The notes below the pieces were generated by a model that ran no database searches, had not been told where the DNA came from, and saw only the letters and a program-made list of their open reading frames with translations. A DNA stretch of 37,903 bases from Chlorobium sp. (GTDB taxonomy: Bacteria; Bacteroidota; Chlorobiia; Chlorobiales; Chlorobiaceae). Every line of letters starts with the position of its first letter. Position 1 is the stretch's first letter. This document shows positions 1 to 26,186 of this stretch, one piece after another. The stretch covers positions 1-37,903 of the forward strand of contig SZXW01000011.1 of the NCBI GenBank assembly GCA_005862285.1, read 5' to 3'. Both the position numbers and the translations under genes were made by a program.

Positions 1-140
1 CCCTGTTCCCGGCGCTCACGCAACCGGCTACCGATATTCCGCCCCTAACGGGGCTGAAGACCCATTACCCATTCCCCATTACCCACTCAGCACTCAGTCC
101 TAAGGTGGCTTATCGCCACCCACCTCCCATTACCCATTTT
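1..140. repeat. Right end of a composite G/C-array repeat element
   Basis: This stretch has a GCCCC-TAAC-GGGGC hairpin at 41-54, then a C-rich array of CCCATTA, CCCATTC and CCCACT units at 61-100, a perfect GGTGGC/GCCACC hairpin at 104-120, and more CCCATTA units that run into the 3' end of trbI. The same order (small palindrome, then C-rich array) closes the repeat blocks that end near 10082, 10452, 11465 and 35935. The left part of this copy lies outside the window. The 104-120 hairpin is just downstream of the trbI stop and might act on its transcript, but it has no T tract, so terminator function is uncertain. Confidence 0.75.
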
Positions 141-1431
141 CATTATACGGAGACAGGATCATATCCTTGTTGACCAGTACATTGACCTTCTTGCCGGCGA
201 GGATTTTCAGGGTCGGCTGGATATCGAGGTTCTTCCGGGTAATCTGGGCTCCGGCACTGCTTATTTCCTCGCCGACGTTGGCGGCCATGCGCTGCTGGAT
301 CGTCATGCTTGATGCATCGGTATACGCCCCCTGTGAAACATCGGCGCCAACCGACAGCAGGGATGAGAGGATAACCCCACCAGCCAGACGGTCGAAATGA
401 TTGTCCACTTTGTCCTTGTATCCGCTGTTTCCTGCAAGATCGACCCCCGGCATATTATCGAGCAGGATCGAGCTGCCGTCCGGCCTGACAAGCCGGTTCC
501 AGTTGACCTGGACCCTGCTCTGCCCGTAGCTCACCATCGAATCATAACGGCCAAGCACGCGGGTTCCTTTCGGAATGAGAAGAAAATCCCCTGTCCGGGT
601 GTCGTAAACGTTTTCACTCACCATGGCAACGACGTTACCCGGCAGATCGCTGTTGATCGCCGTAATGAGGATGACTGGAATAATGCTGCCTGCCTTGATT
701 TCATAATTGCTCAAAGGGCTATGAACAGTTTTCGACACATACTCCTTCTCCTCCCCTGCACCGTTGGAGAAGAAATCGTTTTTCCGATCCTGCATGTTCT
801 GGCCGCCCTTGCCATAATTGGACGCGTTGTTCTGACCGACCGCTGAAGAAATGGATGCCGCCAGGTTGCCGACCATTCCTGGTTGTTGAGTATTGCCTCC
901 CCCCGTAAAAAACGGGCTTGCCTTGATGGCCGCCTGTTTTTCAACCTCTTCCGGGTCCGTCTGATGATTCTGATTGACTGCTACCGTGCCTCCGGCATTT
1001 CCCCCAGTTCCATGCCCGTATATACCCTGACCACGGTTAACCATAGTCTTGCTGAAGTCGCCCGGCAGAGAATGGCCATGACCTGGAATCGAATCGGACC
1101 GCATTGGTTGCTGCGGAGCAGCAACGATGACAGGGGCATCATTGCCGGGACCTTTTCTGATCTTTTCCGGAATCGTGAGGATCTGGTTGATTGATGGATC
1201 TTCCTTTCTCGCGCCCTTGCGTTTGTCTTTCGGCCACAGGGCAAACGAAACGGCAATCAAAATAATGCTCAGAACAGTTGCACCGATGGCAATGACCGGC
1301 CCTTTTTTCAGGGTTCGGCTTTTCGCGACCGGCAGCCGCAACCTTGGATCATCTGCGGGGATCTTCGATGCATGAACATCTTCCATAGGACCATCCGCTG
1401 GTTCCTGTCTGTCTTTCTTTTCGGTATCCAT
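130..1431 (-). CDS. trbI: TrbI/VirB10-family type IV secretion protein
   Basis: TrbI (VirB10-like) spans the periplasm, linking the inner-membrane complex of the conjugation channel to the outer-membrane core. The 433-residue protein has a short charged cytoplasmic N-terminus, one membrane helix at about residues 44-66, a Gly/Gln/Asn-rich periplasmic linker at about 90-235, and a C-terminal TrbI domain from about residue 245. That domain begins IKAGSIIPVIL and contains the conserved stretches LIPKGTRVLGRYD and VNWNRL. It is the last gene of the minus-strand trb operon, 5 bases after trbG, which leaves no room for trbH between them. Its final Gly codon and TAA stop (GGGTAA) belong to the neighbouring repeat array, so the repeat abuts or has replaced the original 3' end. 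Family assignment is secure; activity is not shown. Confidence 0.93.
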   Translation of the reverse strand: MDTEKKDRQEPADGPMEDVHASKIPADDPRLRLPVAKSRTLKKGPVIAIGATVLSIILIAVSFALWPKDKRKGARKEDPSINQILTIPEKIRKGPGNDAPVIVAAPQQPMRSDSIPGHGHSLPGDFSKTMVNRGQGIYGHGTGGNAGGTVAVNQNHQTDPEEVEKQAAIKASPFFTGGGNTQQPGMVGNLAASISSAVGQNNASNYGKGGQNMQDRKNDFFSNGAGEEKEYVSKTVHSPLSNYEIKAGSIIPVILITAINSDLPGNVVAMVSENVYDTRTGDFLLIPKGTRVLGRYDSMVSYGQSRVQVNWNRLVRPDGSSILLDNMPGVDLAGNSGYKDKVDNHFDRLAGGVILSSLLSVGADVSQGAYTDASSMTIQQRMAANVGEEISSAGAQITRKNLDIQPTLKILAGKKVNVLVNKDMILSPYNENG

Positions 1432-1436
1432 AGGGA

Positions 1437-2240
1437 TTATCTCGATTTGGAGATTCTCACGATAATGTCACCATCCTGACCACCCCGCAATTCCGCACGC
1501 TCAAACAGGCGGTCAACGACGTAGTAATCCTTTTTCACACGGAAGTTGACAAGCTGTGTATCCTTACTGCTTCCCAGGGCGAAGAGAACCGGACATTCAC
1601 GGTTCTGCATTTCAACAGGGAACTGGATGAAGGTTTTCATGCCGTCGTCAAACACTTTCGCCGGCAGCCAGTAGGGTGTGCTCCCTTTTTTCACATCTAT
1701 CCTGTAGTTGAAATTCAGGGCGGAAACATTCACTTTCTGTTCGATGGCATTGTTTTCAATGCGTGAAATCTGGCGCATGTTGTACTGCTCGTAATTCCAG
1801 GAAACCGCCGCCATGTAGGTGGTTTCGTAGCTGGTCAGCTCTATGTGGTAGGTCCTCACGTTGGTATTGAGGCTCAATGTGGTTTTCAGGTCCGGCCTTG
1901 TCGGCTTGACATAGACATGCTCCTGATCGAGCCCGTTCACCCGGCTTTTCGTCCGGGCAAGTATCCAGCGGACCGAATCACCGCCGACAGGCTCGGAGGT
2001 GAGGGTCTCTCCGGGTTCAAGCTGGATATCCGTAATGCGTAACGGAGCGCAGTATACCTGATAGAGCTGGCCTTCCTCGAAATCATATTTCATGATGGCG
2101 TTATGGTATCCGAAGCTGTCAGGGTTCCGCTGTGATTCATGGTTCGCCTTTTCAATGACAGATTGCGGAGTGGCAAGTACAGGCGCCGAGATAAGACAGG
2201 CAGCCAGGACGCCAAAAACAATTCCTTTACCGTTGGACAT
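1437..2240 (-). CDS. trbG: TrbG/VirB9-family type IV secretion protein
   Basis: TrbG (VirB9-like) is a periplasmic subunit of the outer-membrane core complex of P-type conjugation systems and works with TrbI and usually a VirB7-like lipoprotein. The 267-residue product has a Sec signal peptide with likely cleavage after VLA at residue 23. An N-terminal domain precedes a C-terminal beta domain that holds the VirB9-type stretches LNFNYRI and PAKVFDDGMKTFIQFP. The usual partner gene trbH, between trbG and trbI in RP4 and Ti plasmids, is missing. It lies 30 bases after trbF. The ATG at 2240 fits because it directly precedes the signal peptide. Confidence 0.93.
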   Translation of the reverse strand: MSNGKGIVFGVLAACLISAPVLATPQSVIEKANHESQRNPDSFGYHNAIMKYDFEEGQLYQVYCAPLRITDIQLEPGETLTSEPVGGDSVRWILARTKSRVNGLDQEHVYVKPTRPDLKTTLSLNTNVRTYHIELTSYETTYMAAVSWNYEQYNMRQISRIENNAIEQKVNVSALNFNYRIDVKKGSTPYWLPAKVFDDGMKTFIQFPVEMQNRECPVLFALGSSKDTQLVNFRVKKDYYVVDRLFERAELRGGQDGDIIVRISKSR

Positions 2241-2270
2241 GTGTTTTCAAGATTTGAATGGTTAAGTACG

Positions 2271-2960
2271 TTACCTGACGAGCTGCGTGATATTGTACTC
2301 ATCGACAAAAAGGCCAATGGGATTTACCGCAAGATCCTTTTCTGTTGAAGGCTGTTTCAGTACAACTTTGAAAACGCCCTTCCAGAATGTCTCGCCAAGA
2401 GGATCGCCCATAATTCCCCACTGCGATTCTTTCCAGTCAACCTGCCAAGAATCTTCGGTAATACGGACCATCGAAAGAACGTCGACGCTTACCCTTTCCC
2501 TGGCAGCACGAATGAACGGATCATTCTTCTGAACATAGGCCGTGAGGGTATTGGCCGCTTTTTGAGAAACAAGCTTGTAGGCATCGAGCCAGTTTGCCTT
2601 TATGACACCGGCATCACTGCTGATCATTCTGGTATCACGAATGAACCGGCTCAGGTGGTATCTGATTGAAGGATCGGAAGGCTTGTATCTCTCCCACTGC
2701 TGTCCGACAACACCATGATAGGAAGCACTTCCATCCTGGGCAACCTCGACGATGTGGGGAACCATCCTGGGTAACGATCCAAGGTAGATCATCCCGCCAA
2801 CAGCCGGAAAAGCAACGAGAAGCAGGGTTGCGAAAGTAGCAAGCCTCCAGTTCCTCGCCTGGATTGTTGCTGCGCCGATACGCATATCCCATTCCTGGCC
2901 AGCCCGTTTGTAAACGGTGTCAATTCCGCCTTGCGGCGACCATTTTTTACCTGTTTTCAT
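2271..2960 (-). CDS. trbF: TrbF/VirB8-family type IV secretion protein
   Basis: TrbF (VirB8-like) is a bitopic inner-membrane assembly factor that contacts TrbL, TrbG and TrbI during channel building. The 229-residue protein has a cytoplasmic N-terminus of about 38 residues, one membrane helix at about 39-60, and a periplasmic NTF2-like domain. Near the C-terminus it has NPIGLFV, matching the NPxG motif of VirB8 proteins needed for dimer formation. The N-terminal region with WRLATFATLL just before and within the helix is also typical of TrbF. It sits between trbL and trbG, as in Ti-plasmid trb operons. Confidence 0.92.
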   Translation of the reverse strand: MKTGKKWSPQGGIDTVYKRAGQEWDMRIGAATIQARNWRLATFATLLLVAFPAVGGMIYLGSLPRMVPHIVEVAQDGSASYHGVVGQQWERYKPSDPSIRYHLSRFIRDTRMISSDAGVIKANWLDAYKLVSQKAANTLTAYVQKNDPFIRAARERVSVDVLSMVRITEDSWQVDWKESQWGIMGDPLGETFWKGVFKVVLKQPSTEKDLAVNPIGLFVDEYNITQLVR

Positions 2961-2990
2961 GGCATCATGAATACTTGTATGATTGAGGAA

Positions 2991-4310
2991 TTAAACTTCT
3001 GCTTGTGAGCTTTCATCCTTCTGCTGATTACGCTGCATGGCATCAAGGGCATTCACTGCCCAAGCGGACGAATTATCTTTCCCTGACAAGTTTTCAGACC
3101 CGGACGACGCTGTATTTCCGGCACTCTCGACCGTCTTTCCTGCCGCTTCTGCAGTTGTATCGGCAACTTTTCCAGGTGCATCGCCTGCTTTCTCGGCAGC
3201 TTTTCCGGCCGCCTCACCTGCTTTTTCGACACCCTCGCCTGCGGATTGCATACCCTGCCCGGCTGCGGAAACACTTTGCCCGGCTTTCTGCATAGACTGC
3301 CCGGCAACTCTGGACGATTGCTGAATAGCCCCACCTGCCATTTTTCCAGCTGCACCTCCAGCCACTCCGCCGGCACCCCCGCCCGACCCGCCAGACTTCC
3401 CAAACCAGTTTGTTAATGCTGAAGTAGCGGCTTTCACTGCACCAATAGCAGCTCCCCCTGCTTTTATTGCCCCACCGATAGCATGTGACGCCATTCCACC
3501 AGCAGCCATGGCGTTTTGCATCGCAACGGCGGCTGAAAGGTTCGGACTGCCAGACAAAAGGCCTGCGGCCACGCCCGGAGCATTCCAGCAAAGAAAAGCA
3601 AGTGCACCAACGGTGAGAAAGGCACTTAATACTTCAGGAATCGTGAGATCACCAGAGAATTTCAGCGTTTGCAGAACCGGTAAAATGATACTAACAAGAA
3701 AAGCAAGCACCATGAGCTTGATGCCGGAGGAAACAATGGCCCCAATAGATTTTTCGGCAAGGAACTTGGTCGGCTCGAAAAACCCGAAAGGCAGAAAAAG
3801 GCCAACAAGAGCGGAAATAAGGTAGAACTCCAGAACGGAATAGAAGATTTGCCAGGCAATCAGAATGTATGCTATTACCACAAGAATCAGGCAAATACCC
3901 AATACAAGAGCTTCAATAAGCCGCAGGGTTGCACTCATTGCGATTACTTCATTTAAAGCAGGAACAAGATTGGCAAAACCTATTTTCATTACCTGTGAGG
4001 GGTCAAAAAGATTACCACTCCCACCTCCTGCTGCCATTTGTCCTGCATTAACAAGCGACTTGGCAAAAGCGCTGGAAATCTCCGGAAATTTCTTGATTAT
4101 CCAAGCCCAAACGAGTAAATAAAGCAACTTCTTCATGATGCCAACCAGGTTATCGATCCCGCCAAGAGCCATCCAGAGTCCGAACATTAAGATTTCAATA
4201 CCGAGAAATACCTTGATCAGAAAATTGATGGCTGGCTGCAAGTTGACCCACCCATGACTAAAAACCGTCAGAAAATTGTTTAGCGTAGTGGTGAGAATTC
4301 CGGGATCCAT
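2991..4310 (-). CDS. trbL: TrbL/VirB6-family polytopic membrane protein
   Basis: TrbL (VirB6-like) is the multi-pass inner-membrane channel component of P-type type IV secretion systems. The 439-residue product has several hydrophobic helices (about residues 24-50, 61-75, 133-158, 160-178, 196-215 and 228-250). The C-terminal tail from about residue 270 is soluble and very rich in Gly and Ala. Within it, residues 336-384 form a repeat in which Ala recurs every seven residues (units such as AGQSMQK, AGQSVSA, AGQGMQS, AGEGVEK). Long, low-complexity TrbL tails are common; the regular heptad is notable. The gene follows the trbK-like lipoprotein and precedes trbF, as in Ti plasmids. Confidence 0.9.
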   Translation of the reverse strand: MDPGILTTTLNNFLTVFSHGWVNLQPAINFLIKVFLGIEILMFGLWMALGGIDNLVGIMKKLLYLLVWAWIIKKFPEISSAFAKSLVNAGQMAAGGGSGNLFDPSQVMKIGFANLVPALNEVIAMSATLRLIEALVLGICLILVVIAYILIAWQIFYSVLEFYLISALVGLFLPFGFFEPTKFLAEKSIGAIVSSGIKLMVLAFLVSIILPVLQTLKFSGDLTIPEVLSAFLTVGALAFLCWNAPGVAAGLLSGSPNLSAAVAMQNAMAAGGMASHAIGGAIKAGGAAIGAVKAATSALTNWFGKSGGSGGGAGGVAGGAAGKMAGGAIQQSSRVAGQSMQKAGQSVSAAGQGMQSAGEGVEKAGEAAGKAAEKAGDAPGKVADTTAEAAGKTVESAGNTASSGSENLSGKDNSSAWAVNALDAMQRNQQKDESSQAEV

Positions 4311-4329
4311 GCTGGTGTTTTTTTAAAGT

Positions 4330-4581
4330 TCACTGCTTTATCTCTGGCAATTTTACTGGATGAGGTGTTTTGTCCATATACTCTGGAGGTACACGCCAGA
4401 ATTTTTCGTTAAGAGCCTTAGATTTTTCGTACTCTTTTCTCGGGATAGAAATCTCAACATCGCCCTGTCTGATTTTCACTCGATCTTCGCACCCGGAAGT
4501 TATGAGCAACCCAAGGATGCCGATGGAAAGGTATCGGTAATGTCTGAAATCGTGGTTTATGCGGAAGATTGTACAATTCAT
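4330..4581 (-). CDS. trbK: Small lipoprotein in the trbK position
   Basis: This is an 83-residue protein with a basic N-terminus, a hydrophobic stretch and a lipobox-like LLITSGC with the modified Cys at residue 31; the mature part is only about 53 residues. The ATG at 4581 has a good GGAG sequence ten bases upstream, one of the clearest in this operon. It lies between trbJ and trbL, the slot of trbK in IncP and Ti systems, where TrbK is a lipoprotein for entry exclusion. The name rests on position and lipoprotein character, since trbK genes diverge quickly. As trbH is absent, it could instead supply the VirB7-like core lipoprotein. Function is inferred. Confidence 0.7.
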   Translation of the reverse strand: MNCTIFRINHDFRHYRYLSIGILGLLITSGCEDRVKIRQGDVEISIPRKEYEKSKALNEKFWRVPPEYMDKTPHPVKLPEIKQ

Positions 4582-4609
4582 GGTTTCTGATCTCCTTTAA
4601 TGCTTTTCT

Positions 4610-5359
4610 TTATTGTTGAATATCCGGCAAAGCTACTCCGTGATTTGATGTGTCCTGATTATCCATACCTCTCAGCAGCTTCTGTCCATATGCTGTCGCA
4701 GCCTCCTTCCTCTGCGCTTCTTCAGCGGCCATCATTGCTGTAATCCGGGTGCTTGTCGACAGGTTTTCCGTGAGACCTCCGAGCTGGGCTGAAACAATCC
4801 CGAGCATCTGGTTCGTTGACTGGAGTTGCCTTACTTCGCCGTCAGCTCCTGCCGACCGCTTAAGGATCGCTATCGCCTCGTCATTGTAACCCTGCGATCG
4901 TTGAATGACAGACTGCCCCTGCATGGCAATTTTCGCGGCATTGGCAAGTTCCGTGTTCCATTTCCGGACAATGTCCGAATACTGTCCGCTGCTCATGTTG
5001 TTCCATTGTCCCTGTGGGTAAAGCTGGTCGTATTGGGAACTGATCTGGTTGAGGTCGAAGGAAATTCCCTGAACACTGGTCAGGAGAGTGTTCAGTTCTC
5101 TCATATTGCTGTCATATATGCCTTTGACTGCTCCGAATGTCGAACCTGGCAGGGTCGTCAGGGTTTTAACCTGATTGGCGATCTGGGCAAGCTGGTTCTG
5201 AATCTGCTGCGCTGTCCTCGCTGCTGTCAGGGTGTTCTGCTGCAGGTTGGAAAGATCGATAACAGTCAACGCAGCGGCAGCCGGTTTAAAAGAAAACGTA
5301 GTGACGACAGGTACAAGCAACATGCTGGCCAGGAGATACTTCTTGAAAGATATTTTCAT
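4610..5359 (-). CDS. trbJ: TrbJ/VirB5-family minor pilus protein
   Basis: TrbJ (VirB5-like) is a periplasmic protein thought to sit at the pilus tip or help its assembly. The 249-residue product has a Sec signal peptide (basic KKY, hydrophobic core, cleavage near AAAA at about residue 29) followed by VIDLSNLQQNTLTAARTAQQ. This is the Gln-rich helical start usual for TrbJ. The rest is mostly predicted helix, rich in Gln, Asn and Ser with few Cys. It lies between trbE and the trbK-like gene, matching the trbE-J-K-L order of Ti plasmids. Confidence 0.92.
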   Translation of the reverse strand: MKISFKKYLLASMLLVPVVTTFSFKPAAAALTVIDLSNLQQNTLTAARTAQQIQNQLAQIANQVKTLTTLPGSTFGAVKGIYDSNMRELNTLLTSVQGISFDLNQISSQYDQLYPQGQWNNMSSGQYSDIVRKWNTELANAAKIAMQGQSVIQRSQGYNDEAIAILKRSAGADGEVRQLQSTNQMLGIVSAQLGGLTENLSTSTRITAMMAAEEAQRKEAATAYGQKLLRGMDNQDTSNHGVALPDIQQ

Positions 5360-5383
5360 TGAGTTACGGTTTTATGATTATCG

Positions 5384-7837
5384 TCAGGAGTGCAGATTTT
5401 CAGGAACACACCTTTCAAGCATCTGGGCCTCCGCTTCGAGACCTCTGTGCCGGAGCAAAGCCGGCGCCCATTGTTCCGGGGAACGGTTTGCAACAATCCA
5501 GTCCATGATCTTCTGATCGTCCGGTGAAGACATTCCTGCAAACGCCAGGGCAACCGGTCCCAGGTTGAGCGCAAATACCCGATGTCCGATCACCGAGCGG
5601 TAGTAGTAGTCCCGCTTCGCCTGCAGATAGGCAAGCAACTGGATTTCGGCCTCGGACAATCCGAACCTGCTGTAGGTTTCGCTCATTACCGGAGTAAGGG
5701 CCTCTTCATCGGGGAGGTAAATCTTGGTATGGCAGGCCGAGAGGATCGTTGCCATGATCGGGGAGTTTGCGGCATCGGCGACCTCCTGCGTGGCGAAAAC
5801 GACATAGACGTTTTTCTTTCTCAGGGTTTTCAGCCAGTTCTGCAACTGGTGCATGAATACCGGATGCTTGAGAAAAAGCCAGGCTTCGTCGAGGACAAGC
5901 AGGGTCGGCCTGCCGTCGAACCTTTTTTCGACCAGATGAAAAAGGTAGAACAGCGCCGGAATGACCGCTTCCTGGTTCATGCTCATGAGCGCATTCATCT
6001 CAAGCGTTATCCAGCATCCCTTCGGTTCGAGTTCCTCGGAAGCATCGAATATCTGGCCGTAGTTCCCGGCAAGCGTATAGGGCCGCAGAGCATCCCTGAC
6101 TTCCCTCGACTGGACCAGCTCGCAGAAAAGCGTCAACGTCCGGGCGTTTCTCTCATAGGTGACAAGGTTCAACAGAGCTGAATCGATCTCTTTTTTCAGT
6201 GCAGGGTTCTCCTCGATATGCTGTTCCTTGAGCAGCAACAGGATGAATTCTGCAGCCCAGATTCTTTCTGTCTGGTCATCGATTCCGGCAAGTGGCTGGA
6301 AGGCGAGGGCCGATTCTTCCCCTCCAGGTTCGTAGTAATCTCCCTGAACGGCAATCGTGGCCGCTCTTGATGACCGGTCCTTGTCGAAAATGACCACCTG
6401 CGCCTCGGGATAGCGAAGCCATTGCAGCGCCATCATGGAAAGAAGGGTGGATTTGCCGGCACCGGTCGGGCCGATAACAAGCGTATGCCCGACATCGCTG
6501 ACATTGAGGTTGAACCGGAACGGCGTGCTGCCGGTCGTGCTGCACATGATATGGTACATGCCTGTTCCGCAAACCTCTTTCAGGTGGCGGTTCTCCTGCG
6601 CTCCCGCCCAGATCGCCGAAAGGGGCATCATGTGTGCAAGGGAGAGCGTGCTGATGATTGGACGGCGGACATTGGCATAGACATGGCCGGGCAAGCTGCC
6701 GAGCCATGCCTCAAGCGAATTGAGGGATTCTTCCTTGACGGTGAACCCCCTGCTCTGGATGACCTGCCTGACCCTCCGGATTCGCCGGAGCGCCTCCTGG
6801 ATATCCTCGTGCATGACCGTAACCGTACAGGTCATGTAACCAAACGAGAGCAGGTCCTCACCAAGCTCCTGCAAGGCTGCATCGGCATCGGCTGCCTTGT
6901 TTGCCGCATCGGTATCGAGCAGGGCGGATGGTTCCTTGGTTGCTTCCTCTTTCAGCATGGTGAGCAGGTTCTTGCGTTTTCCCCACCACTGCCGCCGGTA
7001 TTTTTCAAGTTCTTTCTGAGCATCCTGCTTGTCCATGCACATGTACCTTGTCATCCATCGGTACTCGATCTCCAGATGGTTCAGGTCGTCAAGAATGCCC
7101 GGGATCGACACTGCAGGGAAACCCGTAAAAGTAACTGTAGGAATGAATCTGTTGCCAAGCATCGGAATATCGGCAAATGTTAGCGCCTGATCCGGTATGA
7201 GGGCATCGAGATACATGGGAATATCCGGAGCGATCACGGGATGACGGTTCGTGGAAATCGTACTGTGCAGGTAAGTCAGCGTCTCGTGGTCATCAAGTTC
7301 AGCTACTTCGTCAAACACTCCTGCCATGAGGTCGGATATTTCCTGGCAGGTTTTCCGGAAATATTCAAGATCACGCATGTTTTCCATGGCCGCATCGAGT
7401 TTACCTTCCGGGTCGTCATAAAAAAACCCGGACAGCTTCTTGCCTTTCTCGGTTGGCATGCCCCACACGAAGGTTATGTAGTAGGCACTCTCGAAATGGG
7501 CCCCATATGTCATGAACTGATGCTTGCGCTCCAGGTCGAGCAGCCATGCTGCAGGATGTTTCCATGCCGTTCCCTGATAATCGGCTGTATGGAACCGCTG
7601 CGCCTCGATGAATAGGCTCCAGCCTGAACCCAGCCGTTTCAGGGAGTTGTTCAGACGGGCAACGGCTGAAAGCAGTTCGGAACGGGAAGAACTGCCAAGA
7701 TCAGGTCCCCGGAATGCATAGGTTTTCTGCAGAATTGCATCTTTCTGCAGGACCACACCTGGTGCAATGATTGCCGCCCAGGGCAGATAGTCCGGAAGCC
7801 GCTTGGTCGGCTCCCGGTATTGTTTAAGGTTGAGCAT
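5384..7837 (-). CDS. trbE: TrbE/VirB4-family conjugation ATPase
   Basis: TrbE (VirB4-like) is the large ATPase on the cytoplasmic face of the channel that powers pilus assembly and transfer. At 817 residues it is full length. The N-terminal CagE/TrbE/VirB domain covers about residues 1-400. The Walker A motif GPTGAGKST is at 456-464, and the Walker B motif LLVLDEAW is at 646-653. A conserved FATQEVADA segment follows. The domain order is complete and no frame disruption is seen. It starts 5 bases after the trbD stop, which suggests translational coupling. Long antisense frames here are codon shadows. Confidence 0.96.
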   Translation of the reverse strand: MLNLKQYREPTKRLPDYLPWAAIIAPGVVLQKDAILQKTYAFRGPDLGSSSRSELLSAVARLNNSLKRLGSGWSLFIEAQRFHTADYQGTAWKHPAAWLLDLERKHQFMTYGAHFESAYYITFVWGMPTEKGKKLSGFFYDDPEGKLDAAMENMRDLEYFRKTCQEISDLMAGVFDEVAELDDHETLTYLHSTISTNRHPVIAPDIPMYLDALIPDQALTFADIPMLGNRFIPTVTFTGFPAVSIPGILDDLNHLEIEYRWMTRYMCMDKQDAQKELEKYRRQWWGKRKNLLTMLKEEATKEPSALLDTDAANKAADADAALQELGEDLLSFGYMTCTVTVMHEDIQEALRRIRRVRQVIQSRGFTVKEESLNSLEAWLGSLPGHVYANVRRPIISTLSLAHMMPLSAIWAGAQENRHLKEVCGTGMYHIMCSTTGSTPFRFNLNVSDVGHTLVIGPTGAGKSTLLSMMALQWLRYPEAQVVIFDKDRSSRAATIAVQGDYYEPGGEESALAFQPLAGIDDQTERIWAAEFILLLLKEQHIEENPALKKEIDSALLNLVTYERNARTLTLFCELVQSREVRDALRPYTLAGNYGQIFDASEELEPKGCWITLEMNALMSMNQEAVIPALFYLFHLVEKRFDGRPTLLVLDEAWLFLKHPVFMHQLQNWLKTLRKKNVYVVFATQEVADAANSPIMATILSACHTKIYLPDEEALTPVMSETYSRFGLSEAEIQLLAYLQAKRDYYYRSVIGHRVFALNLGPVALAFAGMSSPDDQKIMDWIVANRSPEQWAPALLRHRGLEAEAQMLERCVPENLHS

Positions 7838-7842
7838 GGTAT

Positions 7843-8094
7843 TCAGGGATAAAGACGTTTCGGTGTTTTCAGCGCCCGGATGAAAACCTCGAAAAAATAC
7901 GGGTCTTTGCGGGTCATGGCGACAAGGCCGAAATGAAGCGCAAAGGCTGCCGGAAGGACCCAGATCTGCTGCAGTCCAAGTCCGATGGCTGCAGCAATGG
8001 TCCAGAGAAGAAGGGCTGGAGTTCTCGGGACTCCGCCAAGCAGGATCACCTCCGTCAGGGAGCGGTGGACCGGCACTTCATACCCGTCGCTCAT
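7843..8094 (-). CDS. trbD: TrbD/VirB3-family membrane protein
   Basis: TrbD (VirB3-like) is a small inner-membrane protein that associates with the VirB4-type ATPase in pilus biogenesis. I chose the ATG at 8094 rather than longer frames because it overlaps the trbC stop as ATGA, and because the 83-residue product then begins MSDGYEVPVHRSLTE like typical TrbD proteins. Two hydrophobic segments at about residues 27-56 form a hairpin, followed by DPYFFEVFIRAL, which matches the family end. The upstream extension in this frame is a shadow of trbC. Confidence 0.9.
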   Translation of the reverse strand: MSDGYEVPVHRSLTEVILLGGVPRTPALLLWTIAAAIGLGLQQIWVLPAAFALHFGLVAMTRKDPYFFEVFIRALKTPKRLYP

Positions 8095-8474
8095 ACCAGC
8101 AGGCCTCCACCAAAGCCCATGAAGGTAAGGCCCCACGAAAGTGCACTGAAGGCGATGGCAAGGCCCATGACAACCCACAGGGCCTTTCGCATCATGCTGC
8201 TTCCATCTGAAAACGCAATACCTATGCCGAGCCCGATAATGGACACTGCTCCAAGAACTTTTGAAACCGGTCCAGTCAGGGAATCGAGGAGCTTTTTGAG
8301 AGGATCTTCCCACGGCAAACCTGCACCATCGGCGAAGGCATCAGCCGGAAACAGCTGCAGTACAAGGATGCCAAACGCGATACCTGCCGCAATTAATACA
8401 TCTTTATTTATTTCATTTTTCCGCAATTTCCCAATTGAGGGCATCAAAAGTCGAGAATGTTTCATTGGATTCAT
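8091..8474 (-). CDS. trbC: TrbC/VirB2-family pilin precursor
   Basis: TrbC is the major pilin of the P-type conjugative pilus. The 127-residue precursor has an extended N-terminus, a hydrophobic signal segment and a likely leader-peptidase cut after AFA at residue 48. The mature part is about 79 residues with two hydrophobic helices joined by a short polar loop (SDGSSMMRK), as in VirB2/TrbC pilins. In RP4, TrbC is trimmed at its C-terminus and cyclised by TraF; a traF homologue lies upstream here, so cyclisation is plausible but not shown. The start could be a later Met (residue 4 or 11) without changing the mature pilin. Confidence 0.9.
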   Translation of the reverse strand: MNPMKHSRLLMPSIGKLRKNEINKDVLIAAGIAFGILVLQLFPADAFADGAGLPWEDPLKKLLDSLTGPVSKVLGAVSIIGLGIGIAFSDGSSMMRKALWVVMGLAIAFSALSWGLTFMGFGGGLLV

Positions 8475-8515
8475 GGATTAAGGGTTGAATGAAAACAATG
8501 CGATAAGTGGAAACG

Positions 8516-9475
8516 TTAAAAAACCGGTTTTCTCAGAAGCCACTGCCCTTGCGATTCTCCCGTGACTTCCATGATTCCGGTAATGGAACGACCGGCAGGA
8601 TGCCCGGTATCACGTCTCAGGTGAACGCAAATATCTATTGCATCAGCAATGAGGTAGCGAGGCGCATGCGGCATGACCTCTTCACACAGCTGGCAAAGCC
8701 GGTCGAGCATCGAACCGGTACTGTTGGCATGTATTGTTGCGATCCCGCCGGGATGCCCGGTATTCCAGGCCTTCAGCATATCGATGGCAGCACCGTCCCT
8801 GACTTCGCCGACAATAATCCTGTCCGGGCGGAACCGGAGCGCATCCATGATGGCTTTCTGGTGCGTATAGACCGGCGGCTGGACAAAGATTTCCACCTTG
8901 TTTTCGGCATCGCACTGCAGTTCAGGATTGTCTTCAACGATATACACCCGGTCGTTCGTTCCGGCAACCTCCTGCAGCAGGGCATTGACAAAGGTGGTTT
9001 TTCCAGATCCAGTACCACCGCCGACAAGGATGTTTTTCTTTTCCCTTACGGCCTTTTTCAGGAACTCGGCCTCCCGGTCCGTCAGGATGCTGCAATCGAT
9101 ATAATCCTGTATGGGATAGACAAGCTTCGCCGGTTTTCGAAAAGAAAAAACCGGTGCGGCAACAATTGGAGGCACCGATGCCTGAACTCTCGCCCCCCAT
9201 CCGGGAAGCTTTGCGGAAAGGGACGGGCTTCGCTCATTGACCTCAGTATTCATGGCTGCCGCAAGGAGACGGACAATTCTTTCAACTTCATCGGATATCA
9301 TGACAACTCCGGAAAAGCTCATACCTTCTCCGAACCTGTCAATCCATACCTTCCCGTCAGCATTGACCATGATTTCAAGAACCATGGGCTCATCCAGATA
9401 GCTCATGACCGGATTAAGTGCCGTTCTCAGAGCATCATATTTTCTTGTCCGGGATAGTTCTTTTTGAGGCGTCAT
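8516..9475 (-). CDS. trbB: TrbB/VirB11-family secretion ATPase
   Basis: TrbB (VirB11-like) is a hexameric traffic ATPase working with TrbE at the base of the channel. I prefer the ATG at 9475 (319 residues), which gives a start close to other TrbB proteins (SRTRKYDALRTAL). A TTG at 9502 would add nine residues. From the ATG, the Walker A motif GGGTGSGKTT is at residues 152-161, followed by an Asp box (YIVEDNPELQ), Walker B region (IIVGEVRDG) and His box (TGHPGGIATIHAN). All needed motifs are intact. It is the first gene of the trb operon; its last bases lie 41 bases before trbC. Confidence 0.94.
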   Translation of the reverse strand: MTPQKELSRTRKYDALRTALNPVMSYLDEPMVLEIMVNADGKVWIDRFGEGMSFSGVVMISDEVERIVRLLAAAMNTEVNERSPSLSAKLPGWGARVQASVPPIVAAPVFSFRKPAKLVYPIQDYIDCSILTDREAEFLKKAVREKKNILVGGGTGSGKTTFVNALLQEVAGTNDRVYIVEDNPELQCDAENKVEIFVQPPVYTHQKAIMDALRFRPDRIIVGEVRDGAAIDMLKAWNTGHPGGIATIHANSTGSMLDRLCQLCEEVMPHAPRYLIADAIDICVHLRRDTGHPAGRSITGIMEVTGESQGQWLLRKPVF

Positions 9476-9502
9476 AGAGCAAAAGTACTGAAAGAGGTTC
9501 AA

Positions 9503-19959: not shown

Positions 19960-20721
19960 ATGTCTTCTAAAAAAAGATTGTCACATCTGCCAGGACGCAC
20001 CTTGCAAGGATTGATCTGGAATTTTGCATGCGGGGTTTCCGGTTTACTGATTCTTCTTCTTCCACTTTCAGGTATGACATCCTCAGCTCTTGCAGGGGAA
20101 AAAGAACCGGTAAAAGGCCATGAAGCATCATCATCAAGAACAACTGAAGGGCTTCTGACAACTACTGAAGAAATGATCGAGCAGCTTATTCTTCAGATCG
20201 ATCGTCAGAACGAAAACAGCCAGGAAAAGAAAGAATTTGCTGAATATTCCAATCCGTCCCCCCTCAACGCAAGCATACCAAACATCAAACCGGTCCAGGG
20301 TTCCATCACAAGTGAATTCGGCATGAGAATGCACCCGGTGCACAATTCCGTCCTGTTCCATGCCGGGGTCGACATTTCCGTGTCTACCGGTACTGAAGTC
20401 CATGCAACCGGTGACGGTATCGTTGCATTTGCAGGATATGAGGGAGGATACGGCCAGAAAGTGACCATCAACCACGGTTACGGTTATAAAACGATTTATG
20501 CCCACCTTTCCAAAGCTCTTGTCCGGGAAGGTCAGAGAATCAAGCGGGGTGAAATCATAGCACTCTCCGGAAACACTGGAGTGTCTACCGGTCCGCACCT
20601 GCATTATGAAGTTCAGAAAAACGGAGTGACAGTCAATCCGACAGCCTATTTCGAAGAGGCTGCGGACAAGAAGTTCATGACTCATAAAAATATACCTGAT
20701 AACAGCGACAGCAACTCTTAA
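19960..20721 (+). CDS. M23-family (LytM) murein peptidase
   Basis: The 253-residue product has an N-terminal hydrophobic segment at about residues 22-46 ending in ALA, a signal peptide or anchor. A short linker (rich in Ser, Thr, Glu, Gln) follows, then a LytM domain from about residue 110. Zinc and catalytic residues look intact: HAGVD contains the first His and Asp, and GPHLHYEV carries the later His pair. Typical glycine-rich strands (YEGGYGQKVTINHGYGYKTIYAHLS) lie between. It probably cuts peptidoglycan cross-links in the periplasm or activates such enzymes. It lies 20 bases before the DUF2795 gene. Confidence 0.9.
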   Translation: MSSKKRLSHLPGRTLQGLIWNFACGVSGLLILLLPLSGMTSSALAGEKEPVKGHEASSSRTTEGLLTTTEEMIEQLILQIDRQNENSQEKKEFAEYSNPSPLNASIPNIKPVQGSITSEFGMRMHPVHNSVLFHAGVDISVSTGTEVHATGDGIVAFAGYEGGYGQKVTINHGYGYKTIYAHLSKALVREGQRIKRGEIIALSGNTGVSTGPHLHYEVQKNGVTVNPTAYFEEAADKKFMTHKNIPDNSDSNS

Positions 20722-20740: not shown

Positions 20741-20968
20741 ATGTACTGGAATTTAGATCTCGCACGCTATATAGCGGATGCTCCCTGGCCGTTGACAAAA
20801 GATGAACTGATTAATTATGCAAACAGAACCGGAGCACCTCAACAGGTTATCGACAACCTCGCAGATCTTCCTGACAGTGACGAAATGTACGAAAGCATAG
20901 ATGAGATCTGGCCTGACTACCCTACCGATGAGGATTTCTGTTATGGAGATGAAGAACTGTTGACATAG
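20741..20968 (+). CDS. DUF2795-like small acidic protein
   Basis: This encodes a 75-residue acidic protein. The first half resembles DUF2795 proteins: an ARYIADAPWPLTKDELINYA helix pair followed by GAPQQVIDNLADLPD. The acidic C-terminus is DEIWPDYPTDEDFCYGDEE. No enzyme motif or signal is seen. Function is unknown. It is 20 bases downstream of the M23 gene and 21 bases before the likely ATG of the BamA-like gene, so it appears to be in the same transcript. Confidence 0.8.
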   Translation: MYWNLDLARYIADAPWPLTKDELINYANRTGAPQQVIDNLADLPDSDEMYESIDEIWPDYPTDEDFCYGDEELLT

Positions 20969-20989
20969 GACAATCATAAAACAACCCCG

Positions 20990-23220
20990 ATGTTTTTTTT
21001 TTCAAAAAATACAGGTTTTACCGGATAACAATATCCGTTCTTTGCGCTCTTTTCATTTCTCTCCTGTTCTGTCCTTTTCATTATTCTATAGCCGAACAGA
21101 ATCCTTCATCCGGCCTGCCTTATGTAAGTAAAATCCACTTCAGCGGAAATAAAGCGGTAACGACTGAAGAACTCCGTCAGATCATCAATACAACCGAGCC
21201 GACCTCCTTTATGGGACTGGGACTGTTCGGTTCTGCACGCAAGCCGTTCAATTCGGAAACGTTCCAGAAAGACCTCGCCGTCATAAAAAAGCTTTATGCC
21301 TACAAAGGGTACTTTTTCACTGAAATCGACACATCGATTGTCAGGCAGAACAATGGAAAAAAATTGAAACTGAATATTCTGATACGTGAAAAACAACCCT
21401 CCCGAGTCGATTCCCTGCGTTACGAAGGTATTGAAGAGATTTCACAAGAAATCAAAACCAGATATCTCGGTAAAAAACGGCTGAAGGTCAACGATATTTT
21501 CACGGTCGAACGCCTGATCGAGGAAAGGGACAGGACACTCACATTTTTCAAGGATTACGGATACACCTTTTTCAATGAAGACAGTATCCGCATCAAGGTC
21601 GATACGGCCGGAACACATGCAGGCATTCTTTTTAGGCTCCGTTTACCGAAACAGAACAAATATGGACCTGTCAATGTGGTTGTCCATAACCCTCTGAAAA
21701 AAGATAAATCGAACTTCATAAAAACCTTTTCAAGGGACAATATCGAGGGCAGAATAGAGGGGAAACAGAAAATTTCACCGGTACTGATCACTTCAGCCAT
21801 AAAGTTCCGCCCGGGAGAGCTGACCAATCAGAGTCATGAACAACGTACCGTTGAAAATCTGGGAGGCACCAATGTTTTTGCATCCATTTATATCAATCCC
21901 GATTCTGTAAAAGCAGGAGAAATATATACAACCGTACACCTCGAACCGGCACCGAAACACCAGATAGAACCGAAAATTCTGGTCGACAACCGTTACGGAG
22001 CATTGTTTTTCGGCGGTTCTCTCGCCTATGAAAACAAAAATCTGTTCGGAAGTGCAGAACAGTTGCACACTTCAGTCGAATACGGAACCCAGTCCGGTTA
22101 CAGCAACAGTCTGCTTGGCAACCTGAATGAAAGTCAGTACGAAAAAATCATTCCCTATGAATTCCGGATTAAAAACAGCCTTGTCTTGCCGATACTGAAA
22201 CACCCCGGCAATTTCTACATGGCAACTGCTGAATATGCAAACACAAAACAGCCAATTCTTCTCGCAAGCAAGAGTGCACTGCTTCGCGGCACATACAGCA
22301 CCCGGCTGACCAGTTCGTCCAGGCTCAATTTCGACTTTTTTGAAATTGAATGGATAAAACAGGATTCCCTCAGAGGGTTCAAGCAGTTGTTCAAAACTGA
22401 CCTTGCATCAAACATCGGAATAGATCCAACCAATACAACCAGGGTCAACGCCGCTGTCGACAGTCTTCTCGAAGCACATATCAACCAGACATTCCGGCTC
22501 CGTTACAATTATAACAACCGGATGAAAGTCGCACCTGAAAAAACGGTACTGAATCTTGACCTGCTTTTTGAAAACGCCGGTATCCTGCCATGGATCATCG
22601 ATAAATATATAGACAAAAAATCTTATGCCGGGTTCAGCCAGAGCAACCCTCAAATATTCGGTACAGCCTATTCCCAGTATGTAAAGCTTGAATCGGGAGT
22701 CAGCCTCACAAAAAATATCACTCCGAAAAGCCAGGTTGCCGGAAGGCTTATCACCGGATGGATGGCACCTTACGGTAAAGCGGAATCGACACCCGAAGAA
22801 CGCCGTTTTTACGCAGGAGGTTCAAACAGCATGAGGGGCTGGCTTTTCAATACACTGGGGCCCGGAAGCAGCACAAGCAGGGCGGCTGCGAATTTCGGAG
22901 CAGACATCAAACTCGAGATGAACCTCGAATACAGGGTGAAATTTTTCAAACTGTTCGATCAGCCTTCAGGTATTACCATTTTCAGCGATACCGGCAACGT
23001 CTGGGACAGAGAAGGTCCATATGCCCTTTCACTGTCTTCGCTGAAAAATGATTTCGCATGGGATATGGGCATCGGGCTGCGGCTGGGTTCACCGGTAGGA
23101 CCGTTCCGACTGGATTTCGCATGGAAACTGCATGATCCGACCAGTTCCCAGCCCTGGCAGATTTCAAACTGGAAACCTGGTGACTTCACCTTCAATTTTG
23201 GAATTGGCGAAGCTTTTTGA
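20990..23220 (+). CDS. BamA/TamA-like (Omp85, D15 surface antigen) outer-membrane protein, start out of frame at a T10 tract
   Basis: Omp85 proteins insert or export outer-membrane proteins. The first ordinary in-frame ATG is at 21211, but that would cut through a POTRA domain and lose the signal. The same frame is open from 20980 and encodes a good signal peptide (KKYRFYRITISVLCALFISL) followed by POTRA-like YVSKIHFSGNKAVTTEELRQ. It has no ATG, GTG or TTG there. The ATG at 20990 directly precedes ten T; with eleven or eight T it would join this frame and give about 743 residues. POTRA-like repeats cover about 55-330. The C-terminal barrel ends with NFGIGEAF, an aromatic last residue as in outer-membrane barrels. 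It may be TamA- or BamA-like; which cannot be settled. rpe follows after 59 bases. Confidence 0.85.
20993..21002 (+). repeat. T10 homopolymer directly after the start codon
   Basis: Ten consecutive T follow ATG at 20990-20992 and are followed by C and six A. As read, translation from this ATG stops after 12 codons at TAA 21026-21028. One added T or two removed would put the ATG in frame with the signal peptide and the rest of the BamA-like gene. Confidence 0.95.
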
Positions 23221-23945: not shown

Positions 23946-24702
23946 TTTTTGAAAGTTCGGGATGTGTATGTAGCCCCTCACCAATCAGAACGGCATCGAA
24001 AGATGCATTTCTGATGCGGGCTATGTCATCCAGTGTCTTCATTCCGCTTTCTGAAACGGCGATAACCCCGGATGGAATGAATGGGCGGAGTGCAACAGAT
24101 GTTTCCAGCCTGACGGTAAAATCCCGCAAATCACGATTGTTCACGCCTATGATACCGGCACCGCATGCAACTGCCGTATCGAGCTCACGGCGGTCGTGGA
24201 CTTCGACAAGCGCATGCAGGCCGAGGCTGTGTGCTATCTGCAGGTAATCGGCAAGCTGAATCGCATCGAGCGCAGCCACGATAAGCAGGATGGCATCCGC
24301 ACCGATAATGCGCGAATGGAAAATCTGGGACTCGTCAACGACGAAATCCTTGCGAAGCACCGGCAGTGGAAATGCCTGCCTCACTTTCATGAGGTAGTCG
24401 TCAGAGCCCTGGAAAAACATGCGGTCGGTAAGTACCGAGAAAGCTGAAGCGCCAAGTTCGAAATAGCGGCCGGCGATGGCTACCGGATCGAAATCCTCGA
24501 CGATGACCCCGCGTGACGGGGAAGCTTTTTTCACTTCGGCGATGAGGCGAAGTGTCCCGTTGCCGCCGGTAATGGCTCCTTTGAAATCCCTCACGGGACC
24601 AAGTGATCCCAGAAGTTCTTCATAACGCTGCAGGGGTTTCCCTTTTTTCAGCTCAAGAACTTCCCTCTGTTTCTCCTCGAGTATCCGGGTGAGGTAGGTC
24701 AT
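23926..24702 (-). CDS. trpC: Indole-3-glycerol-phosphate synthase
   Basis: TrpC closes the indole ring in tryptophan synthesis, turning carboxyphenylamino-deoxyribulose phosphate into indole-3-glycerol phosphate. The 258-residue protein has [12 protein letters not shown] (catalytic Lys), [13 protein letters not shown] (second Lys), [12 protein letters not shown] and AVSESGM, all in the expected order of a TIM barrel. It is the stand-alone form, not fused with TrpF. Its ATG overlaps the carB stop as ATGA, so it is coupled to a pyrimidine/arginine pathway gene rather than to other trp genes. Confidence 0.96.
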
Positions 24703-26186
24703 ACCGTTTTTTCAGTGCCGGCGAGCTCCCTCAGCTCGTTTTCTATTTCGACGATCTGCCTTATGTTGTCGAGGAACCAGGGATCAATGCCTGTCGAATT
24801 AAATACTTCATCAACCGTAGCGCCGGCCTGGAAAGCGTAGCGGAGGTAGAACATCCTGTCCGCTTTCGGGACTTTTATCTTTTCAAGGAGATCCTCCTTG
24901 GCGAACTTCTTCTGCTGCGGGGTCATATCGAGCACGTTGATGATATCCTTGCCGTCACAACCAAGACCAGCACGGCCTATTTCAAGCGCGCGCAGCGATT
25001 TCTGGAGCGCCTCGCGGAAGTTCCTGCCGAAAGCCATCACTTCTCCGACCGACTTCATCTGTACGCCGAGCCTCGCATCGACGTTCTTGAACTTCTCGAA
25101 ATCCCAGCGGGGCACCTTGACGACACAGTAGTCGATGGCCGGTTCGAAGCTTGCCGGTGTGCTCTTGGTAATGTCGTTGAGAATTTCGTCCAGCCTGTAC
25201 CCCACCGCAAGCTTTGCCGCGACCTTGGCGATCGGAAAGCCGGTGGCTTTCGACGCGAGCGCCGAGCTGCGGGATACGCGCGGGTTCATTTCTATGACAA
25301 CGATGCGTCCGTTTTCCGGATTGATGGCGAACTGGATATTGCTGCCGCCTGTCTCGACGCCAATCTCACGGATAATCCTGACAGAAGCGTCCCTCAGCTC
25401 CTGGTACTGGCGGTCGGTCAGGGTCTGAGCAGGGGCGACGGTTATGCTGTCGCCGGTATGTACTCCCATCGGATCGACATTCTCGATGGAACAGACGATG
25501 ATCACGTTGTCCGCAAGGTCGCGGATAACTTCGAGCTCGAACTCCTTCCATCCGATCAGGCACTCCTCGACAAGCACTTCGCTGATAGGACTTTCGGCAA
25601 GGCCCCTGCGCACCGCCTCGTAATAATCGGCCTTGGTTTCCGCGAAACCTCCGCCGGTTCCTCCGAGCGTGAACGAAGGACGGATAACGATCGGAAGCCC
25701 GATTTCCTCGAGGGCATCCCTTGCCTCTTTCTCGTTGCGCACGAAAAAGCCCTTGGCCATTTCGAGGCCTATCTTTTTCATGGCATCGCTGAAGAACTCG
25801 CGGTTCTCGGCTTTCCTGATAGCCCGGAGTTTCGCACCGATAAGTTCGACACCGTTGCGCTCGAGTACCCCCGATTCGGCGAGGCTCACGGCCGTGTTCA
25901 GCGCTGTCTGTCCGCCCATGGTTGGCAGAAGCGCGTCAGGTTTCTCCTTTTCTATGATTTTCTGGACATATTCCGGCGTGATCGGCTCGATATAAGTGGC
26001 ATCTGCCAGTTCTATATCAGTCATGATGGTTGCCGGATTGCTGTTCACCAGCACGACACGGTACCCGTCCTCCTTGAGGGCGCGGCACGCCTGCGTACCT
26101 GAATAATCGAATTCACAGGCCTGACCGATGACGATCGGACCCGCACCTATCACTAAAATCGACTTGATATCTTCCCGCTTTGGCAC
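24699..26186 (-). CDS. carB: Carbamoyl-phosphate synthase large subunit, N-terminal half (split CarB)
   Basis: CarB makes carbamoyl phosphate for arginine and pyrimidine synthesis. E. coli CarB is about 1070 residues with two ATP-grasp halves. This 495-residue protein matches only the first half and part of the oligomerisation domain. It starts with [20 protein letters not shown] and has [42 protein letters not shown] and [18 protein letters not shown]. It ends normally after [10 protein letters not shown], overlapping trpC by 4 bases, so it is a true split gene, not a broken one. The carbamate-phosphorylating half must be encoded elsewhere. Split CarB is known in Aquifex and Methanocaldococcus. 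The start codon is GTG. Confidence 0.93.

Follow-up and report, generated by a model that had tools for sequence, protein, structure and literature searches.

In the window, by which we mean the whole 37,903-nucleotide stretch of Chlorobium DNA analyzed here, a gene for an Omp85 protein begins with a start codon that is out of frame with the protein it precedes, the two being separated by a run of ten T. Of the 84 species whose start region was read, 47 carry a run of nine to eleven T in the corresponding position (T9, n = 4; T10, n = 39; T11, n = 4), and in 46 of those 47, a count in which species are not independent samples, the start codon lies outside the Omp85 frame. We regard it as very probable, from this comparison of sequences, that the frame is shifted at the run during expression, by whatever means, and as probable, with less assurance, that slippage of RNA polymerase does the shifting.

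The first-pass annotation, made from the window alone, had described an ATG followed at once by T10, which eleven or eight T would bring into the downstream frame; a frame open from 20980; and, in that frame, a signal peptide and the first POTRA strand. Direct reading and translation bear out all three descriptions, the last of them also through the PF07244 match given below. The sequence around the start runs ...CATAAAACAACCCCG, ATG, TTTTTTTTTT, CAAAAAATACAGG..., and the Omp85 frame, whose codons fall at 20980, 20983 and so on, is open from a TAA at 20977 to its stop codon, the TGA at 23218-23220. As the annotation had also stated, this frame, from 20980 to 23217, offers no ATG, GTG or TTG before 21211. 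The start region comprises the following features:

20990-20992, + strand: ATG start codon, one base out of the Omp85 frame (direct reading)
20993-21002, + strand: candidate slippage tract, exactly ten T, then CAAAAAATACAGG (direct reading)
20990-21028, + strand: reading without slippage, a dead-end open reading frame of 12 codons, MFFFSKNTGFTG and a stop (window sequence)
21003-23220, + strand: Omp85 (TamA/TamL-like) frame, entered only after gain of one T, loss of two T or a ribosomal -1 shift (PF01103, PF07244, NCBIfam TamL at 302 bits)
21003-21090, + strand: part coding for the signal peptide, with positive N-region FKKYRFYR and hydrophobic core (translation)
21022-21037, + strand: small stem-loop CGGATAACAATATCCG, 3' of the T run (window sequence)

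Read past the run, the Omp85 frame gives FKKYRFYRITISVLCALFISLLFCPFHYSIAEQ, a typical signal peptide with likely cleavage near SIA/EQ, and a start at 21211 would delete that peptide together with part of the POTRA domain. The unslipped frame from ATG 20990 gives M-F-F-F-S-K-N-T-G-F-T-G-stop, ending on the TAA at 21026-21028.

We place the product in the Omp85 superfamily (BamA/TamA-like), its matches to two Pfam families both lying above their cut-offs:

21118-21390, + strand: POTRA domain (PF07244, residues 43-133, E 4.6e-19)
22660-23217, + strand: C-terminal part of the Omp85 barrel (PF01103, residues 557-742, E 6.3e-34)

Its best NCBIfam match is lipo_TamL (NF052279, residues 79-741, 302.3 bits), which brings it close to TamL and TamA, the Omp85 partners of TamB, and a TamB gene lies elsewhere in the window genome. 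TamL proper was dropped as an identification, since the score falls under the cut-off of 400 and the lipobox cysteine pattern, present in a single one of the 84 orthologues, is absent in the other 83; judged by its sequence, the protein is an Omp85 that is TamA/TamL-like, not TamL. The first-pass annotation had thought of a second, dispensable Omp85. The gene is indeed not the only one of its kind, a separate, longer, BamA-like gene being found on contig C2 of the same genome, but its dispensability is doubtful, because it is the single full-length orthologue in every genome of the genus and in 20 of the 21 of the sister genus, and because TamL, its nearest characterized relative, is essential in two Bacteroidota (PMC12045153).

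Two genes precede it in the same direction:

19960-20721, + strand: M23 peptidase gene (PF01551, E 7.3e-35)
20741-20968, + strand: DUF2795 gene (PF11387, E 4.9e-18)

The stop of the DUF2795 gene lies 21 nt ahead of ATG 20990, the + strand shows neither a promoter-like nor a terminator-like site from there to the Omp85 start, and the two genes probably belong to one operon. Strong Shine-Dalgarno sequences (GAGGAG or AGGGAG, -8 to -11.4 kcal/mol) stand before the ATG in several species of the sister genus. Species of the genus Chlorobium are mostly without a good one, the window species has no strong one upstream of ATG 20990, and initiation in this genus may depend on coupling with the gene upstream. 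The downstream neighbor, from the open reading frames, is a ribulose-phosphate 3-epimerase-like gene. Farther off in the window, and judged by eye only, the open reading frames of 130-9502 (minus strand, at one contig end) look like a block of VirB/Trb-type conjugation (type IV secretion) genes, and a CarB-like frame of only 495 codons at 24699-26186 (minus strand) resembles the N-terminal half of the large subunit of carbamoyl-phosphate synthase, possibly one part of a split carB.

A comparison of the run in related genomes had been recommended at the outset, and we made it in 65 genomes of the window's genus and 21 of a sister genus in the same family, one sister-genus genome giving no match. 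Of the 46 out-of-frame starts, 34 would need one T more and 12 one T fewer. The codon ahead of the run is ATG or GTG in the relatives, with TTG in G031 only, and it stands directly 5' of the run or, in a few species, 3-15 nt upstream. The run is also out of frame in each of the family's five single-contig genomes (G004, G065, G066, G080, G084). Among order-level relatives (Chloroherpeton-like and others), no run of T8 or A8 was found upstream of the gene.

Two species call for separate mention. G051 (locus L036) has the only in-frame run, GTG-T11; it is nested among T10 relatives, its genome is 80% complete, and a real on-variant and a homopolymer error are both possible. G077 (L142) is the only sister-genus species read that is without a run of T9 or longer; its ATG stands before T6 and is still out of frame, and its open frame extends back into the DUF2795 gene, where there is an in-frame TTG.

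The first-pass annotation had left phase variation, slippage and error side by side, and of these slippage is now the best supported. Homopolymers are error-prone, and G051 and G077 could be affected, but a sequencing or assembly error is scarcely credible and we reject it, because the out-of-frame run is conserved in all but one of the tract-bearing species; it recurs with differing flanks and in the single-contig genomes too. If replication slippage made the gene phase-variable, the T run would toggle it on (T11 or T8) and off (T10) between cells; this is in keeping with a long homopolymer at a start codon, with a run length that changes at least eight times on the tree, and with the in-frame length of G051. 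Against it, the sole orthologue, which is related to an essential factor, would be off in all the other tract-bearing genomes; a mixture of on and off would be expected between species, and one in 47 is on. Were a third of such runs in frame, the probability of finding at most one among 47 would be about 1e-7, a figure that ignores kinship, and phase variation gives no reason to expect selection for the adjacent stop codons described next. Simple phase variation is disfavored, to the point of being very unlikely, since an in-frame length occurs in a single species.

The run is constrained at the level of single nucleotides. Across the 47 species, Phe codons within it are TTT 107 times and TTC 3 times, the three TTC being cases in which the run ends in C; in the gene body the counts are 486 and 718 (40% TTT). 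Flanking bases are almost random, most columns being near maximal entropy, and no other run of at least nine at a shared position was found in the 5-kb loci beyond three close relatives. In 43 of the 47 species the final T forms TAA, TAG or TGA with the two bases that follow it, against a background of 16.5% for AA, AG or GA behind common T4-T8 runs of these loci. Of the 39 T10 species, 35 have this stop in phase with their start codon, the exceptions being the window species, its nearest relative and two others, and faithful transcripts therefore typically read Met-Phe-Phe-Phe-stop.

On the other side of the run, the next 13 codons of the Omp85 frame are without a stop and carry a net charge of +1 or more in all 47 species, a charge that the N-region of a signal peptide requires, and the frame one base on holds a stop in 45. 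Ten species, the window's included, have no in-frame ATG, GTG or TTG ahead of the mature part. Translation in the Omp85 frame must consequently begin at or before the run, where standard start codons lie only in another frame. It might be argued instead that initiation takes place at an in-frame codon past the run (ATG, GTG, TTG or a rare ATT or CTG), the ATG-T10 being a leader or relic and termination-reinitiation possibly playing a part. Many relatives do have an in-frame ATG, GTG or TTG 4-60 nt past the run, and in five species of the sister genus (G065, G068, G080, G082, G084) an ATG four bases past it leaves a good signal peptide and could serve as the start. We nonetheless judge initiation elsewhere to be improbable, given the ten species that offer no such codon and, in the window, the loss of signal peptide and part of the POTRA domain from the 21211 start. 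Moreover, it is the ATG or GTG with T10 that is conserved, not the position of the downstream starts, most of which would remove the positive N-region that follows the run in every tract-bearing species.

A shift at the run could also be the work of the ribosome. In programmed ribosomal frameshifting of the prfB kind, Phe-tRNA on UUU would slip by -1 (or by +1 where a base is dropped), aided by the stop that follows. U_UUU_UUN is a slippery pattern, the stop directly past the run in most T10 species is what P-site slippage would use, an A-site stop behind a slippery UUU, and the RNA 3' of the run is more stably folded than its shuffled versions (mean z -1.6), with a 5-bp stem in one Chlorobium clade (AGRGC/GCYCU) that covaries weakly, at one pair. 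Yet the direction of the shift differs in close relatives (G066/G067, G004/G005), and the adjacent stop is missing in the T11 species, in three of the four T9 species and in the window. In T9 species that need -1, the shifted pairing would be with UUA or UUG, which Phe-tRNA reads poorly, and seven U would be enough where 9-11 are kept without an internal C. Taking these points together, we consider ribosomal frameshifting unlikely.

RNA structures that stimulate frameshifting usually lie 5-9 nt downstream of the slip site. Here the stem is about 19 nt from the run, stem-loops 15-20 nt past it being common in relatives, and downstream structure is strongest in the GTG species that have no run (mean z -3.1), for which reason we do not read the hairpin as a frameshift stimulator. 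A structured zone some 15-60 nt past the T run is seen in most of the 84 loci, in the window at 21022-21037. The run was also considered as a terminator or attenuator and set aside, there being no hairpin just upstream of it (the preceding 40 nt have a mean z of +0.5); no terminator-like site on the + strand ends at the run.

Transcriptional slippage, which we prefer, accounts for the uninterrupted T, for a length near that of the 9-nt RNA:DNA hybrid, for both directions of shift and for the T9 and T11 cases. Orthologues keep their direction in ribosomal frameshifting and do not necessarily do so in transcriptional realignment (Antonov 2013, PMC3711429); the variation in shift direction and run length between relatives thus favors RNA polymerase over the ribosome. 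Several marks of a slippage gene can be read from the sequences: a homopolymer of at least about 8-9 (T10 in the window), a conserved frame break, a coding frame kept past the run, and a direction that is not fixed. Insertion errors at A/T runs grow exponentially with run length, and E. coli transcripts rarely show forward (-1) slippage at homopolymers (PMC5574713); with E. coli RNA polymerase, poly(T8) deletions in a reporter reached 10% (PMC6260861).

The arrangement is probably a programmed frameshift, conserved in Chlorobiaceae, and we infer the following sequence of events. The ribosome would initiate at the ATG (GTG in relatives) directly before the ten-base run, and faithful transcripts would lead to a dead end, giving Met-Phe-Phe-Phe-stop in most species and, in the window species, a peptide of 12 residues. 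Because the run is as long as the RNA:DNA hybrid, RNA polymerase would slip on it, producing a minority of transcripts with 11 U, or with one U fewer where -1 is needed. Signal peptide and protein would be encoded by these slipped transcripts only, and the gene would for that reason be always on, at an output set by the frequency of slippage.

The history of the run, as read from a protein tree with outgroups and parsimony counts of change, is one of persistence. Runs are found in both genera and on deep branches, among orthologues only about 55% identical, and one large clade starts at TTG. Parsimony requires 5 changes in presence of the run, 7 in frame state and 8 in length, and on these counts the run appears to be ancestral to the family, with about five losses. 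Despite this drift of length and frame, the in-frame state occurs at one tip only. The 36 tract-less species start in frame at TTG (TTG GCA AAA GC...) in 29 cases and at GTG in 7, and an ATG start was found in none of them; in G025, G028, G019, G026 and G027 the run is lost and the equivalent GTG is in frame. Because tract-less species use TTG or GTG and never ATG, we infer that low output has been selected, the slippage gate and the weak starts being two routes to it. More tentatively, the start codon and run may together form an ancestral gate, selectively kept out of frame and provided with a built-in stop, in which slippage frequency determines how much of an outer-membrane assembly factor is made throughout the family; in such a gate, UTP level or polymerase speed could possibly set that amount.

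If this is true, the family's only TamA/TamL-like gene depends entirely on mis-transcribed mRNA (or on slipping ribosomes) for its expression and has been kept so by evolution, a possibly essential gene standing behind a hidden gate of low output. In routine annotation the Omp85 start would be misplaced or the gene called a pseudogene. The locus offers a clean system for measuring slippage by a non-model RNA polymerase, and lets one ask why it should be favorable to make little of an outer-membrane assembly factor. Within the window genome, 29 other sites with ATG or GTG before T8 or longer were listed; among those read, none is an out-of-frame start with T9 or longer on a long start-less frame, and one, C1:483012 (T8), is antisense to an ABC-transporter-like gene. 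Our literature search found no paper linking slippage to green sulfur bacteria beyond dnaX, or to the gene described here.

Among known systems, the autoregulatory ribosomal frameshift of prfB (RF2) is +1, at a CTT-TGA type site, and conserved in direction. The Omp85 gene resembles it in that, close to the 5' end, a slip-prone codon is followed at once by an early stop, and differs in showing all three stops, differing directions and a long U run that is kept. Similar too are mxiE and the spa genes of Shigella type III secretion, where slippage at a run restores the frame of a functional protein, or changes it, in some of the transcripts (PMC5009743); their run lies inside the coding region, whereas that of the Omp85 gene forms codons 2-4, ahead of the signal peptide. 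In Citrobacter rodentium tssM (PMC4256274) and in insect endosymbionts (Wernegreen 2010), a frame broken at a homopolymer is likewise rescued by slippage of RNA polymerase. Those cases are read as the rescue of interrupted or decayed genes, whereas the Omp85 break appears to be ancestral to the family and kept with a selected stop.

A further parallel is dnaX, for which slippage has been described in Thermus thermophilus (A9) and proposed for Chlorobi with A7-A9 (Antonov 2013, PMC3711429). In the dnaX of the window genome (L202, G000:C1:7200-10600, minus strand), a 402-codon frame meets an A10 run at C1:8785-8776 and ends soon past it, the tau-like C-terminal part following in the next frame, to which one added base would lead. 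Both genes have a conserved homopolymer of about the length of the RNA:DNA hybrid, at which part of the mRNA would gain or lose a base, and together they would suggest, if the reading given here is true, that homopolymer slippage is a routine device of expression in green sulfur bacteria. The dnaX slip site, however, lies late in the gene and gives two useful proteins; in the Omp85 gene the unslipped peptide has only 4-12 residues, and slippage would gate the whole protein.
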